Shown: piece by piece, positions 1,875 through 63,278 of the stretch
Position numbering within the stretch: the first letter of the stretch is position 1
Layout: every line of letters starts with the position of its first letter
DNA from: Rubritalea marina DSM 17716
GTDB taxonomy: Bacteria > Verrucomicrobiota > Verrucomicrobiia > Verrucomicrobiales > Akkermansiaceae
NCBI RefSeq assembly: GCF_000378105.1
Contig: NZ_KB899258.1
Coordinates: 1-64,000 of the forward strand
Direction: 5' to 3'
Length of the DNA: 64,000 nt
The notes under the pieces: model-generated
Database searches by the model: none
The model's input: only the letters and a program-made list of their open reading frames with translations
What the model was told of the DNA's origin: nothing
Program-made: the position numbers and the translations under genes

Positions 1875-3020
1875 TTACTTGTGAAATATCGCCTGGGCTC
1901 TTTCGTAGATATTTACCAGCTCAAGTGCTGCTTTTTTCCAGTGAAAGCGATCAGCGTTAGTTTTCGCTTTCGTGATGAGTTCAGACACTATGTCTGGGTT
2001 ACCTTCTACTGAAATGAGGGCCTGTTTAATCTCTTCCACACTTTCCGGGTCAATGATGAGACCTGAGTCTGCCACAACTTCTTTGAGGGCTCCTCGGTGA
2101 CTGCTAATGACAGGAAGTCCGCATGCCATGGCTTCGATCGGTGGCAATCCAAACCCTTCAAATAAGCTTGGGTATACTAGGCATGAAGCAGCTTGGTAAA
2201 TAGTAGCTAGATCCTCGTCAGGTATGAAACCTAGGAAATGTATTTGATCTTCATATGCACTGGATTGAGCTGCCTTATAGATCTCTTCACTGCCGTGCCA
2301 GTCTCCTCCACCGATGACGAGCTTCCATTCTGACCTCGTCTCCTTTTTAAACTGAGTGAATGCTTCGATCAATCGAACATGGTTCTTTGCTGGATGCTCC
2401 AACCTTGAGATGTAGACGAAAAATGGAGTATCAATGCCGTGAGTCTGCCGTACCCAAGTTCGTGCGGTTTGTTGATCACTCGGATGAAATCGGTCGTGAT
2501 CAATGCCATTGTGAATGACTGTGACCTCTTCTTTTGGAATGTTGAAAAAATGTTCGATGTCTTTGGCTGTGTCGTGGCTAACTGCAACGATTTGAGTTTG
2601 TCTGGAAGCTAAGTGCTTCACAACGACCTTACCGTAGAACATTCTAGCGATGTCATACTTTCCCTTCACGTGAAACGGGGCAAGATCGTGGATGGTGCCG
2701 ACTGTCGCAAATTGATTGGAAGACATTAATCGGCGATAGCTGGGAACATGAAATACATCGAGCTGGAGCTCTGCGGCAATTTGGGGAGCTACACGGTGGT
2801 GCCACCAGATATTCTTTATGGGTGAACTTGCCCATGCTGCCACAGGAATGATTTTGCAATGGCCTTTCGCGAAATCAAACAAATGTGTCTCATGCTCTAG
2901 GGCGAAGATATGCAAATTAATATTGGGTAGGTGAATAAGCTCCCTAACAATAGCAAAAATGTATTGGCCGACGCCTGAACGCCCCCCTTGAATGACCGTC
3001 GCACTGAGTCCTACTTTCAT
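1875..3020 (-). CDS. glycosyltransferase family 4 (GT-B)
   Basis: 381 residues with two Rossmann-like halves. The C-terminal half has the family-4 signature FEGFGLPPIEAMACGLPVIS (E-x7-E donor-binding motif), preceded by a YISRLEHPAKN hinge. The N-terminal half has GGRSGVGQYIF, typical of the acceptor-side glycine loop. It probably adds a sugar to the lipid-linked repeat unit at the cytoplasmic face of the membrane. Its ATG overlaps the stop of the upstream TagA-STAS gene by 4 bases, so the two are translationally coupled. Linkage and donor sugar cannot be inferred. Confidence 0.88.
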   Translation of the reverse strand: MKVGLSATVIQGGRSGVGQYIFAIVRELIHLPNINLHIFALEHETHLFDFAKGHCKIIPVAAWASSPIKNIWWHHRVAPQIAAELQLDVFHVPSYRRLMSSNQFATVGTIHDLAPFHVKGKYDIARMFYGKVVVKHLASRQTQIVAVSHDTAKDIEHFFNIPKEEVTVIHNGIDHDRFHPSDQQTARTWVRQTHGIDTPFFVYISRLEHPAKNHVRLIEAFTQFKKETRSEWKLVIGGGDWHGSEEIYKAAQSSAYEDQIHFLGFIPDEDLATIYQAASCLVYPSLFEGFGLPPIEAMACGLPVISSHRGALKEVVADSGLIIDPESVEEIKQALISVEGNPDIVSELITKAKTNADRFHWKKAALELVNIYERAQAIFHK

Positions 3021-4186
3021 GAATTAATTTGGTTTAGCGCTTCTTGTAGCGAGTTGGCTTCTACAAACTTACTTCTAAGGCGCATCATCTCTAAAGACTT
3101 GAGGACACTCTGTTGAGCTCCAACGAGAAAGCAGGTGCCGCCCAATTCTTGAGCACCTCTGGCAAATCGAATGATTTTACCAGTGCCTGTACTATCGATG
3201 AACTCCGTAGACTGAGCATCAATGATCACATGCTTCGAGCTAGACTGTGTCCATAGGCTCTCATCTCTGGCGGCCAGAGCATCCATACGCGATGGTAATG
3301 TGATCACTTGATGAGTCGAGGTGACATCTATTTTTGATGTCGTAGAAGGTTGATTTATGCTGTTAGGTGAAGGTTCCTTATAATTCTTATATTGCTTAAA
3401 TAACCCTGGAAGTACGACGCATATATCTTTCCAGTAGCGCTTCGCGAGTCGCTTGGGTTCTTGGCAAGTTCTGTATACCCACTCTAGGCCAGTCTTGCGC
3501 ATCCAGACTGGTGCACGTTTCACAGTGCCCGCAAGAAAGTCGATTGTTGCACCGACTCCGATAGAAACGGGGACTCCTAATTCTCTGAAATTCATAGCCA
3601 TCCATTTTTCCTGCTTAGGACAACCGAAGGAGACAAAAAGCAGATCAGTTTGGCTTTCTTTAATTCTCTGACAAATACTGGCGTGGTCCATTTGCTCTAA
3701 TGGAGCGAATGGGGGGGAATACATGCCGGCGATTTGTAGTTCTGGCCATTTTTTACGAATGTTTTGTTCAGCTGCATGGATGACTTCTTCTTTGCCTCCA
3801 AGGAAGAAGATTCTGTAGCCCTTTGCCTCTGCTAGGCCTAGCATTCTAGGGACCATGTCGCTCCCCGCGACTCGCTCAGGTAATGGGTCTCCGAGGAGTT
3901 TTGACATCCAGATGAGTGGCATCCCGTCTGCTAGCACGAGATCTGACTCGATGAGAGCTTGTTGGAGCTGATCATCCTCTTGAACTAGGGCTAAGAAGTC
4001 CAAATTAGCAGTAGCTATCATATGGGATCTCTTGCTCTGAACCATCTGGTCTACAATCGATATCGTTTGTTCACATGTGACCTGATCAATGGGGACGCCC
4101 ATCATTAAGAGAGGGGGGGCAAGCTCATGATTCCATGTGCGTTCTGATGCCGAGACTTCGGGTGGGAGTAATTTTTTTTCAGCCAA
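3017..4186 (-). CDS. WecG/TagA/CpsF glycosyltransferase fused to a C-terminal STAS domain
   Basis: Residues ~28-260 are a GT26 enzyme, with ATANLDFL (58-65), ADGMPL (86-91), FGCPKQEKWM (187-196) and GVGATIDFLAG (210-220). The family transfers ManNAc-type sugars to undecaprenyl-linked acceptors. After a Ser/Thr/Pro-rich linker (~270-295) comes a complete STAS domain (~290-389) with the phospho-acceptor motif FIDSTG (Ser332), as in anti-sigma-factor antagonists. GT26 enzymes are normally ~240 residues, so the STAS part is an addition. A TTG start at 4186 is used here; ATG codons at residues 28/29 are alternatives and neither has a clear ribosome site. A RsbW/RsbU-like protein is encoded nearby, which suggests regulation by Ser phosphorylation (inference). 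Confidence 0.88.
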   Translation of the reverse strand: MAEKKLLPPEVSASERTWNHELAPPLLMMGVPIDQVTCEQTISIVDQMVQSKRSHMIATANLDFLALVQEDDQLQQALIESDLVLADGMPLIWMSKLLGDPLPERVAGSDMVPRMLGLAEAKGYRIFFLGGKEEVIHAAEQNIRKKWPELQIAGMYSPPFAPLEQMDHASICQRIKESQTDLLFVSFGCPKQEKWMAMNFRELGVPVSIGVGATIDFLAGTVKRAPVWMRKTGLEWVYRTCQEPKRLAKRYWKDICVVLPGLFKQYKNYKEPSPNSINQPSTTSKIDVTSTHQVITLPSRMDALAARDESLWTQSSSKHVIIDAQSTEFIDSTGTGKIIRFARGAQELGGTCFLVGAQQSVLKSLEMMRLRSKFVEANSLQEALNQINS

Positions 4187-60335: not shown

Positions 60336-60890
60336 ATGCGCTGTCCGAGATGCCTACATAAGATGCATTTGACTGCCAATGAATGTCCCCACTGCGGACT
60401 GACATTGGAGCAGTTGGATGATGTGTACGCTGGATTTGATCGGATGGTGAAGAGTCCGCAGGACGGAGCTGGTGTGTTGCGTGTGGCGCAGCGTCGTCAT
60501 TTGGCGAAGGTGGTGCAGGGTATTGAGCGCCGGTTTCCACAGATTTGTTTGAGAGTGGTGACCTGTGGTTTAGGTCGGGATCAATCGGTGCAGAGCTATG
60601 GATTTTGGTTGATGAATCGTGGTGAATTTGTGGACATGCCAGAGGCTGCGCACGAGCAAGGACTGGTGCTCTTGGTGATTGATGCGCAATCGTGTGAAGC
60701 ATGCTTGCACTTCGGCTATTTGCTGGACTCAGGGGTGGACGAACGCGAGTCATTTGAAGCATTGCGGAAAGCCCATCCCTATCTGATCGAGAGCAATTAT
60801 TATGAAGCCAGCAAGGTCATGCTGGTGGGAGTGGAAAAATATTTGAAGCGTCTGTACAAGCGTGCCAAACGAAGGGCCAAGGAGGTATGA
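60336..60890 (+). CDS. TPM-like protein with N-terminal zinc ribbon
   Basis: 184 residues. The N-terminus is a zinc ribbon, C3-x2-C6 and C17-x2-C20 (MRCPRCLHKMHLTANECPHC). The rest (RGEFVDMPEAAHEQGLVLLV; YNEASK-like YYEASKVMLVGVEKYLKRLY) resembles the TPM domain found in photosystem II repair and phosphatase-like proteins. It has no signal peptide or membrane segment. It overlaps the next gene by 4 bases (ATGA), and that gene has a similar domain with an anchor, suggesting the two form one complex. Confidence 0.62.
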   Translation: MRCPRCLHKMHLTANECPHCGLTLEQLDDVYAGFDRMVKSPQDGAGVLRVAQRRHLAKVVQGIERRFPQICLRVVTCGLGRDQSVQSYGFWLMNRGEFVDMPEAAHEQGLVLLVIDAQSCEACLHFGYLLDSGVDERESFEALRKAHPYLIESNYYEASKVMLVGVEKYLKRLYKRAKRRAKEV

Positions 60891-61930
60891 GGCGATTGAT
60901 CTCTATGCTGGGAATGGTGTCCCTAATGATCCACTCTGCGCTTGCGGCGAAGCTTCCAGCATTGCCTGAATGGTCTGAGGAAGACAAGCAGCGCCTGGAG
61001 GCGGGTGAGCTGATCGTTGGCGGGGCCTTGCTGGCGGATGAGTTCGTGATTCCTGAGCGCGAGCAAAATGTGACGCCATCGGTCGAGGTGGTGATCGAGG
61101 CGGTTGAGGAAAAACCTCAAGAGCCAGGTTTTGAGGTGCTCGATCAAAATTCTACCATCTTTGGGCGGCATCTGTTGAACTATTTTGGTGAACAGGCAAG
61201 CAGTCATCTCGTCGACCCACAGCAACTACTGAGTATGCAGGAGCGTCAGGACTTCCTCTACGCGCTCAAGGTGCATGCGGATGTGGCGAAGGTGCCAGTC
61301 TATGTCTACCTCTTTGATGAAGAACAGCGGGTGCCTGAAGGGTATCATCCAGAGCAAAATTTTAAACGTGTGTTTAAGTCGGTTGAGAAGCCTATTTTGA
61401 TTGTGTATTACTACATGGGGGCGCCTATGCGATCGCAATTGGCATTAGTAGGTGGGCAATCATCTGAAGTGCCAGATTGGCACATGCGTGAGCTTTTATG
61501 GAATTCGTCAGATAAGGCAAAAGAGAAGTCAGATGTCTTCGATCAGTTGGACGCATTTCTGGGGCAAGTATCGATGCGCCTCTTTTGGGTAGAGGAATTG
61601 CTCGATGAACTTGTGGTGGAAAATCGCAGTCCACTAGAGGTCGCTGAGGAGGCAAACACTAGTGAAGTTGGTTCATCAAAGTTGTATCAAAATCTTATTG
61701 CTAAGGTGAACTTATCTGTAGAGCAGTTGATGTTATCTCTATCAGTTTTCATACTTATTCTAACATCTTTTTTGTGGTGGTGGAAACGCAGGTATATTTT
61801 CCCTGACACCCCAAGTCCACGTCGTCTTGGAGCCAAGAATGGAGGCACCTGTGGGGGTGTTCTAGCCTTTCGCGATGCTCACGAATCCCCTTCAGAACAA
61901 GGAAAACGCTTCGATAAAGACTTTTTCTAA
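60887..61930 (+). CDS. TPM-like exported protein with C-terminal membrane anchor
   Basis: 347 residues. A signal peptide (~1-21) is followed by a Glu/Val-rich linker and a TPM-like region (YALKVHADVAKVPVYVYLFD; KPILIVYYYMGAPMRSQLAL). One membrane segment (VEQLMLSLSVFILILTSFLW, ~278-300) precedes a basic cytoplasmic tail. The body should sit in the periplasm with the tail inside. TPM domains bind Ca2+ or act as acid-phosphatase-like folds; the role here is unknown. It is coupled to the upstream zinc-ribbon gene by a 4-base overlap. Confidence 0.62.
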   Translation: MRRLISMLGMVSLMIHSALAAKLPALPEWSEEDKQRLEAGELIVGGALLADEFVIPEREQNVTPSVEVVIEAVEEKPQEPGFEVLDQNSTIFGRHLLNYFGEQASSHLVDPQQLLSMQERQDFLYALKVHADVAKVPVYVYLFDEEQRVPEGYHPEQNFKRVFKSVEKPILIVYYYMGAPMRSQLALVGGQSSEVPDWHMRELLWNSSDKAKEKSDVFDQLDAFLGQVSMRLFWVEELLDELVVENRSPLEVAEEANTSEVGSSKLYQNLIAKVNLSVEQLMLSLSVFILILTSFLWWWKRRYIFPDTPSPRRLGAKNGGTCGGVLAFRDAHESPSEQGKRFDKDFF

Positions 61931-62060
61931 AAAACATCTCCTATAAAATGACGGTGAACCACATTGATTTTACTGGGTTTGTGACATATTTTAAACGGAG
62001 GTTTAGATCTTCTGGGAAATAAAAATTTGCGAATAAGCATAACTGATGACATATTGCTCC
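61931..62060. other. non-coding stretch after the TPM-like pair
   Basis: No gene is seen. The stretch is A/T-rich and runs up to the structured RNA/terminator element that begins at about 62061. It may carry a promoter for that element. Confidence 0.35.
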
Positions 62061-62155
62061 TGTTCCCGCAAGGGACGAGACGGTCCAATAGGATTAGCTG
62101 TTCTTTAAGGTTAGGGGGTTTCCTTTAGAATAGTCTATTGGATCGTCTTTTTTTT
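62061..62155 (+). ncRNA. structured RNA/terminator element
   Basis: A small hairpin with a GCAA (GNRA) loop (62064-62075) is followed by a long 13-bp stem (62079-62091 with 62135-62147, one G-U) around a 43-nt loop that itself can fold (AAGG/CCTT). An 8-T run (62148-62155) follows. The whole looks like a small RNA with its own terminator, or an attenuator, rather than a simple terminator. The start is only approximate. Confidence 0.5.
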
Positions 62156-62288: not shown

Positions 62289-63278
62289 ATGACTAGAATC
62301 ATAAGAATGTTCCTGTGTGGTTTTGCCACGATGATGGTGGCGATGGCTCTGCCACCAGATGATTACCACAAGATGCCCAGTGACTTGGGAGGTGTGAGAG
62401 AGTTGCAGGACGTGTTGCAGAGCCGACTGGAGAAGGCGCGAGCGGCGACTGTCTGTGTGCAAATGGGGGCGAACTCTGGGACGGGAGTGGTGGTGAGTCC
62501 TGATGGTTTGGTGTTGAGTGCCGCGCACGTGGTGACTGGGGTGAGTCGGCGGGTCGATCTACTTTTTGAGGATGGCACCGTGTTAGAGGCGCATTCGCTA
62601 GGGCTGAATGCAGACAATGATGCCGCGATGTTACAAATTGTGGATCCACCTGAGGGGCTCGCGTATGTTGATTTATGGAAGGCTGATGCTGATGAATGGG
62701 CTCCAAAGACGGTAATGGGTACTTGGGTTTTCGCGCTCGGCCACTCTGGTGGTTTTGATGAAACGCGTGGGGCGGTGCTACGGCTCGGGCGCGTGCTGCG
62801 CATGGCTAAGGATACGATTGAGACTGATTGTTCCTTGATTGGTGGAGATTCTGGAGGACCCTTGTTCAACCTGGATGGTCAATTGATTGCGATCCACAGC
62901 CGGGTGGGGCGTAGGGTGGTAAAGAACATGCATGTCCCAGTGACTGCATTCACGCGAGACTGGAGCACTCTGAAGTCAGGAGAATTCATGGGGGATGGGC
63001 CATTTGCTGAGGTGGAGACGATAGAAGAAAAGGTCTTGGGAGCTAGTTTGTATGAGTCGAAGACAGAAGTGGTGGTGACGGCAGGCTTTGCCATCGATGG
63101 CGACGGTCGGCCCAGGCTCGAGGCCGGTGATACCATCATGAGTATTGGTGGGGCTGAGGTGAGTAAACTCGAGCAGATTCGTGAGTTTCTCAATGCGCGG
63201 AGTGAGAGCTTCGAGCTCGGTGTGATGCGGGGTGAAGAAGAAATGACCTTCAAGGTGGATGAAACAGAAAGTGAATAA
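62289..63278 (+). CDS. HtrA-like serine protease with PDZ domain
   Basis: 329 residues. A signal segment (~1-20) is followed by a trypsin-type catalytic domain with His80 (VLSAAHVV), Asp111 (NDAAML) and Ser188 (GGDSGGPLF), then a PDZ domain (~240-325, DGRPRLEAGDTIMSIGGAEV). This is the DegP/DegS-type layout, shorter than DegP and with one PDZ domain. It should act in the periplasm as a protein-quality protease. The next gene starts 4 nt after its stop and encodes a related protein without the catalytic His. Confidence 0.9.
   Translation: MTRIIRMFLCGFATMMVAMALPPDDYHKMPSDLGGVRELQDVLQSRLEKARAATVCVQMGANSGTGVVVSPDGLVLSAAHVVTGVSRRVDLLFEDGTVLEAHSLGLNADNDAAMLQIVDPPEGLAYVDLWKADADEWAPKTVMGTWVFALGHSGGFDETRGAVLRLGRVLRMAKDTIETDCSLIGGDSGGPLFNLDGQLIAIHSRVGRRVVKNMHVPVTAFTRDWSTLKSGEFMGDGPFAEVETIEEKVLGASLYESKTEVVVTAGFAIDGDGRPRLEAGDTIMSIGGAEVSKLEQIREFLNARSESFELGVMRGEEEMTFKVDETESE

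Follow-up and report, generated by a model that had tools for sequence, protein, structure and literature searches.

A predicted family of free-standing small RNAs in Verrucomicrobiales with a conserved loop on the terminator hairpin

The window analyzed in this study, i.e., the whole 64,000-nucleotide stretch from contig NZ_KB899258.1 of Rubritalea marina DSM 17716, very probably harbors the gene of a short and tightly folded RNA common to many Verrucomicrobiales (Table 1). We consider it likely that this gene belongs to a free-standing small-RNA family distributed across the order, the predicted product of which is approximately 94 nt long and acts in trans via the loop of its terminator hairpin. 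The structure, the promoters, the T run, and the independence from neighboring genes emerge from comparison of the sequences of relatives; the transcription of the RNA, its targets, and its function are what we infer.

The sequence folds, in 5' to 3' order, into a small hairpin, a stem of 14 bp that encloses a foldable 43-nt loop, and eight T residues. The predicted folding energy is -40.4 kcal/mol, compared with -28.1 ± 3.3 kcal/mol for dinucleotide shuffles (z = -3.8), and none of the 200 shuffles equaled this value. A preliminary description of this DNA had named a GNRA hairpin, a 43-nt foldable loop, an 8-T run, and a protease gene 134 nt downstream, and all of these were confirmed: the enclosed loop (62092 to 62134) folds further internally, and the ATG of a gene for a Trypsin_2 protein is located at 62289, 134 nt past 62155. 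The stem that it described as 13 bp is also present, although 14 bp are counted when one G-U pair is included. The first T of the run is base-paired, and the predicted fold of the window element leaves nearly no unpaired sequence apart from the apical loop and one internal loop. A stable stem followed by a U run, as in intrinsic (Rho-independent) terminators, is thus present; nevertheless, a simple terminator scan did not detect the element at 62062 to 62155, because that scan permits loops of 3 to 8 nt only. The T run is shared by relatives, with at least five T within the 9 bases checked in 118 of the 131 non-redundant copies (the 149 listed copies minus near-duplicates and copies with short upstream sequence).

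Table 1. Predicted features of the small-RNA gene in the window
Feature	Position	Strand	Remark
-35 box TTGCGA (predicted)	62027..62032	+	Copy in genome G005 has TTTGCA-17-CATATT at the equivalent place
-10 box CATATT (predicted)	62050..62055	+	From sequence
Small RNA gene, ~94 nt (putative)	62062..62155	+	Start inferred 7 nt past the -10 box; end within the T run
Hairpin 1 (5'), GTTCCC-GCAA-GGGAC, GNRA	62062..62076	+	
Hairpin 2, outer stem, 5' strand	62078..62091	+	
Inner stem, 5' strand	62098..62104	+	Partner 62127-62133
Apical stem AAGG	62107..62110	+	Partner CCTT 62122-62125
Apical loop UUAGGGGGUUU	62111..62121	+	Most conserved sequence of the element
Hairpin 2, outer stem, 3' strand	62135..62148	+	
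T run of intrinsic terminator	62148..62155	+	

Structural covariation in related genomes, which had been set beforehand as a test, was found and favors the finding. In the RNAalifold consensus of 10 MAFFT-aligned sequences, 16 of the 25 pairs show at least one double change. In alignment A5, in which 64 copies were fitted to the covariance model and which is therefore more biased toward the model structure than the 10-sequence test, standard pairs fill 93.7% of the cells (78.4% when shuffled), 19 of the 22 pairs show changes on both sides, the cells with double changes number 258 (79.7 when shuffled, with 0 of 500 shuffles as high), and the covariation score of 0.599 drops to at most 0.152 when the partners are slid by 1 to 3 columns. 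Reading of the individual loci shows that the loop AGGTTAGGGGGTTTCCT is retained even though the two strands of the stem vary in concert, and the apical loop GUU-N-GGG(GG)-UUU is constant across the changing stems. The motif GUU-N(0-4)-G(3-6)-UU, which was defined after inspection of the data and is favored by the covariance model, occurs in 127 of the 131 non-redundant copies, compared with 7.7 on average in 131 shuffled cores.

Two types of loop are distinguished: type A, GGUUA(G/U)GGGGGUUUCC and its kin, contains five G, and type B, GGUUAAUGGGUUUUCC and its kin, contains three. The genome of the window has only two clear copies, i.e., the window element, which is of type A, and one type B copy (G000:C1:38802-38875; positions 3003 to 3076 of locus L179) downstream of genes for an ABC transporter and a ZnuA-like protein. 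The latter copy has a TTGACG-type promoter and the 5' end GTCGCGACA. In most of the type B copies listed for the genus g13/g7 set, the predicted 5' end is the near-palindrome TGTCGCGACA or GTCGCAAGAC, under both promoter classes described below; it might represent a short hairpin, a dimerization site, or an operator. The stem of hairpin 1 varies among relatives with pairing retained in most type A copies, and the hairpin is weak or absent in many copies of type B and of families f4 and f5; it was therefore rejected as a universal feature.

By DNA search, 7 of 58 genomes contain the element, that of the window included. A covariance model of hairpin 2 only (R1) was built from nine of the 10 MAFFT-aligned sequences, L034 being omitted as its stem was unalignable. 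At an E value of 0.01 or better, R1 matched 127 of 260 genomes of the family (10 of 16 genera) and 121 of 288 genomes of the order (30 of 50 genera), and the latter are split between the family of the window, f1 (60 genomes), and families f2 to f6 (61 genomes). No genome of genus g3 was among the R1 or R2 matches in the family, order, and phylum searches, and the RNA is therefore not essential to the whole host family. The second model, R2, built from 64 sequences, matched 26 of 387 genomes of the phylum, 19 of which are within the order, with best E values of 5.2e-6 or better. The seven outside the order were taken as chance matches (best E values, 1.9e-4 to 9.2e-4; five span only 33 to 44 nt), and because they are this weak, the RNA family seems, by its sequence matches, to be confined to Verrucomicrobiales. 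An exact-loop scan of public genomes gave 21 matches, 20 of which are labeled Akkermansiaceae, Verrucomicrobiales, Roseibacillus, or Rubritalea. The remaining match, in Poribacteria (L077), was attributed to chance, as it has no R1 match at an E value of 0.01 and an R2 match of loop length only.

The window copy is preceded by boxes with the spacing TTGCGA-17-CATATT, and its G005 counterpart by TTTGCA-17-CATATT, and -35-like cores are common among non-redundant copies that have no sigma54 box (41 of 69 group A copies versus 12.7 in shuffles, and 27 of 36 other copies versus 6.3), mostly approximately 60 to 46 nt upstream of hairpin 2. On the other hand, a sigma54-type box, TGGCACG-N4-TTGCT with at least 10 of 12 matches, was found in 27 of 70 copies of the g13/g7 set, which includes one copy of genus g10 (L128), compared with a shuffle mean of 0.08; it starts 36 to 42 nt before hairpin 2 in 26 of these copies and 48 nt before it in one. 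After removal of near-duplicates, the box is present in 23 of 61 copies of this set (shuffle mean, 0.0); it occurs in only 1 of 70 copies of the other set, in a copy from g7, and the window copy itself has none. The consensus quoted in PMC12316311 for sigma54 promoters is TGGCACN5-7TTGCT. RpoN was found in all 40 of 40 genomes. By comparison of the copies, two promoter classes, sigma70-type and sigma54-type, thus appear to serve the family, and a promoter of its own before a conserved, structured, non-coding stretch, as expected of a small-RNA gene, is recognized on sequence grounds. In L163 (167 to 240 and 255 to 327) and L165 (132 to 204 and 219 to 291), pairs of copies lie approximately 15 nt apart behind a single sigma54-type box; the first copy of each pair has a poor T run, so that a two-hairpin transcript is possible.

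The preliminary description had offered a small RNA or an attenuator, and the neighbors of 68 copies, called mechanically as the longest open frames, speak to this choice. A cis-acting attenuator or riboswitch governing the protease gene would be expected to show a constant same-strand association with it. A Trypsin_2 gene of a single cluster is indeed next in 27 of the 68 copies, and in relatives of the same genus the element adjoins the same kind of trypsin gene, although not necessarily in genus g12; however, these 27 are confined to five genera of f1, and the other 41 copies are differently flanked. At L045 and L048, which are of the same locus type, the upstream gene is retained, but a convergent gene on the opposite strand stands in place of the protease gene. 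In the remaining 39 copies, the next gene is on the same strand in 21, on the opposite strand in 16, and absent in 2. As folding of the window element also revealed no alternative antiterminator fold, control of the protease in cis is quite improbable. Were the element simply the intrinsic terminator of the upstream gene, lacking any RNA function of its own, its terminal T run would be accounted for, and the two do share a strand in the window. That explanation is very improbable, given that the loop sequence and the stem covariation are retained across five other families, that promoter boxes precede the element, and that the previous gene is divergent in 19 of the 39 copies outside the trypsin-type loci. 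The gene upstream in the window (60887 to 61930; 347 amino acids) is conserved and precedes the RNA in several genera, also at L045 and L048, where no trypsin gene follows, and a Pfam scan of its product gave no match at an E value of 0.001. Pfam scans of 20 neighbor proteins from 13 loci revealed heterogeneous metabolic and other genes with no shared function or partner.

The mixed neighbors and strands indicate that the RNA is independent of the upstream transcript and is not part of the protease; the sequences therefore argue for a free-standing small-RNA gene rather than a protease attenuator. Of the two readings proposed at the outset, the small RNA is strongly supported by the covarying structure, the promoter boxes, the U-rich end, and the order-wide conservation, whereas the attenuator is not, since the neighbors are unrelated or convergent in most genera. 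The several copies per genome, up to 11 in G182 and in tandem in some genomes, could also suggest a dispersed palindromic repeat or a transposon end of the REP or MITE type. Against this stand the mere two clear copies in the genome of the window, the stems that differ between copies with pairing retained, and the fixed promoter and T run; moreover, among viral contigs, the type A loop had no match, and none of the 24 contigs picked up with the type B loop held a convincing full-length match. A mobile or repetitive origin is accordingly extremely improbable.

For the free-standing small RNA, the following mode of action is proposed. RNA polymerase would start approximately 7 nt past CATATT, yield the RNA of approximately 94 nt, and stop at the T run. 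Hairpin 1 probably shields the 5' end of the RNA, and the functional part is probably the invariant G-rich loop that the long terminator hairpin would expose. This loop probably contacts a partner in trans, which could be a short single-stranded segment of mRNAs or a protein, with the help of neither Hfq nor CsrA: none of 36 genomes yielded Hfq (PF17209) and none of 30 yielded CsrA (PF02599), while the control genomes named for each search were positive. In genus g13 and its relatives, duplicated copies under sigma70-type or sigma54-type promoters may feed several signals into one RNA activity. The exact 11-nt complement of the loop occurs 33 times in 28 type A genomes; comparison of coordinates with the family matches and L034 assigned 26 of these to the RNA gene itself and 7 elsewhere. 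These 7 compare with a Markov expectation of 22 to 30 in the 28 genomes, i.e., there is no excess of long perfect antisense targets, and because the complement is below expectation, such targets are unlikely; short pairing by the loop or a protein partner remains. The reversed loop pattern, used as a control, occurred 48 times, with 63 to 72 expected. Outside the RNA gene, the loop 11-mer and its complement both seem to fall short of expectation, which hints at avoidance.

If the partner is a protein, the RNA could be a decoy, several copies of which would titrate a repressor or an RNA-binding protein by capturing it on the G-rich loop; this would be one form of action in trans through the loop. 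The scarcity of unpaired sequence beyond the loop and one internal loop, the multiple copies per genome, and the lack of an excess of long loop complements are in keeping with sequestration. However, CsrA, the best-known protein of this kind, was found in none of the 30 genomes searched, so that we regard a decoy as a tentative option.

Small RNAs with some of these properties are known from other bacteria. The Qrr small RNAs of Vibrio are multicopy and sigma54 dependent, and they pair with their targets in an Hfq-dependent manner via an unpaired seed. According to the parts consulted of PMC2680268, PMC10162802, and PMC4211561, they resemble the RNA described here in their length of approximately 100 nt, sibling copies per genome, terminator hairpin, and sigma54 promoters of some copies, which are found here in the g13/g7 group only. 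In contrast to Qrr, the hosts belong to a different order, Hfq was not found in the 36 genomes searched, no Rfam match was obtained, and conservation centers on a loop of the terminator hairpin instead of an unpaired seed. By analogy with Qrr, the RNA may operate as a set of sibling small RNAs, yet it is not a member of that family. CsrB/RsmZ-type decoy RNAs likewise display loops on hairpins in multiple copies, but they titrate CsrA, which was not detected here, and the conserved loop core GUU-N-GGG-UUU contains no GGA. GlmY and GlmZ have sigma54-dependent promoters. The same holds for CrcZ and CrcY (PMC6292655), and both pairs resemble some copies of the present family in promoter type; no Rfam family, however, was matched in sequence and structure at the gathering score. 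Specifically, at the Rfam 15 gathering threshold, only 5S rRNA and tRNA were matched in the window, both elsewhere, and only tRNAs in the loci of 10 relatives. The best weak match, the plant microRNA precursor MIR844, was dismissed as a generic long hairpin (22 bits versus a gathering score of 70). In the open-licence literature, no description of such an RNA was found, and the letters of the loop were likewise unmatched.

Regulatory RNAs of Verrucomicrobiota are scarcely described; for the PVC group overall, the section consulted of one review lists 8 distinct sRNAs (PMC9029176). The present RNA adds a compact, testable family for which both ends are predicted, the loop is invariant, and two promoter classes are distinguished, in hosts where Hfq and CsrA were not detected, and its covariance model is usable for annotation. 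As a more speculative possibility, it might form an order-wide RNA system independent of Hfq and CsrA, in which one terminator-hairpin loop is the shared output of several signals and sibling copies, some driven by housekeeping and others by sigma54 promoters, all act on one partner. In a bolder form of this proposal, the loop, GGGGGU in type A, would mimic a Shine-Dalgarno sequence, with the ribosome or C-rich translation starts as its target. The family could reveal how RNA regulation operates without the usual chaperone.
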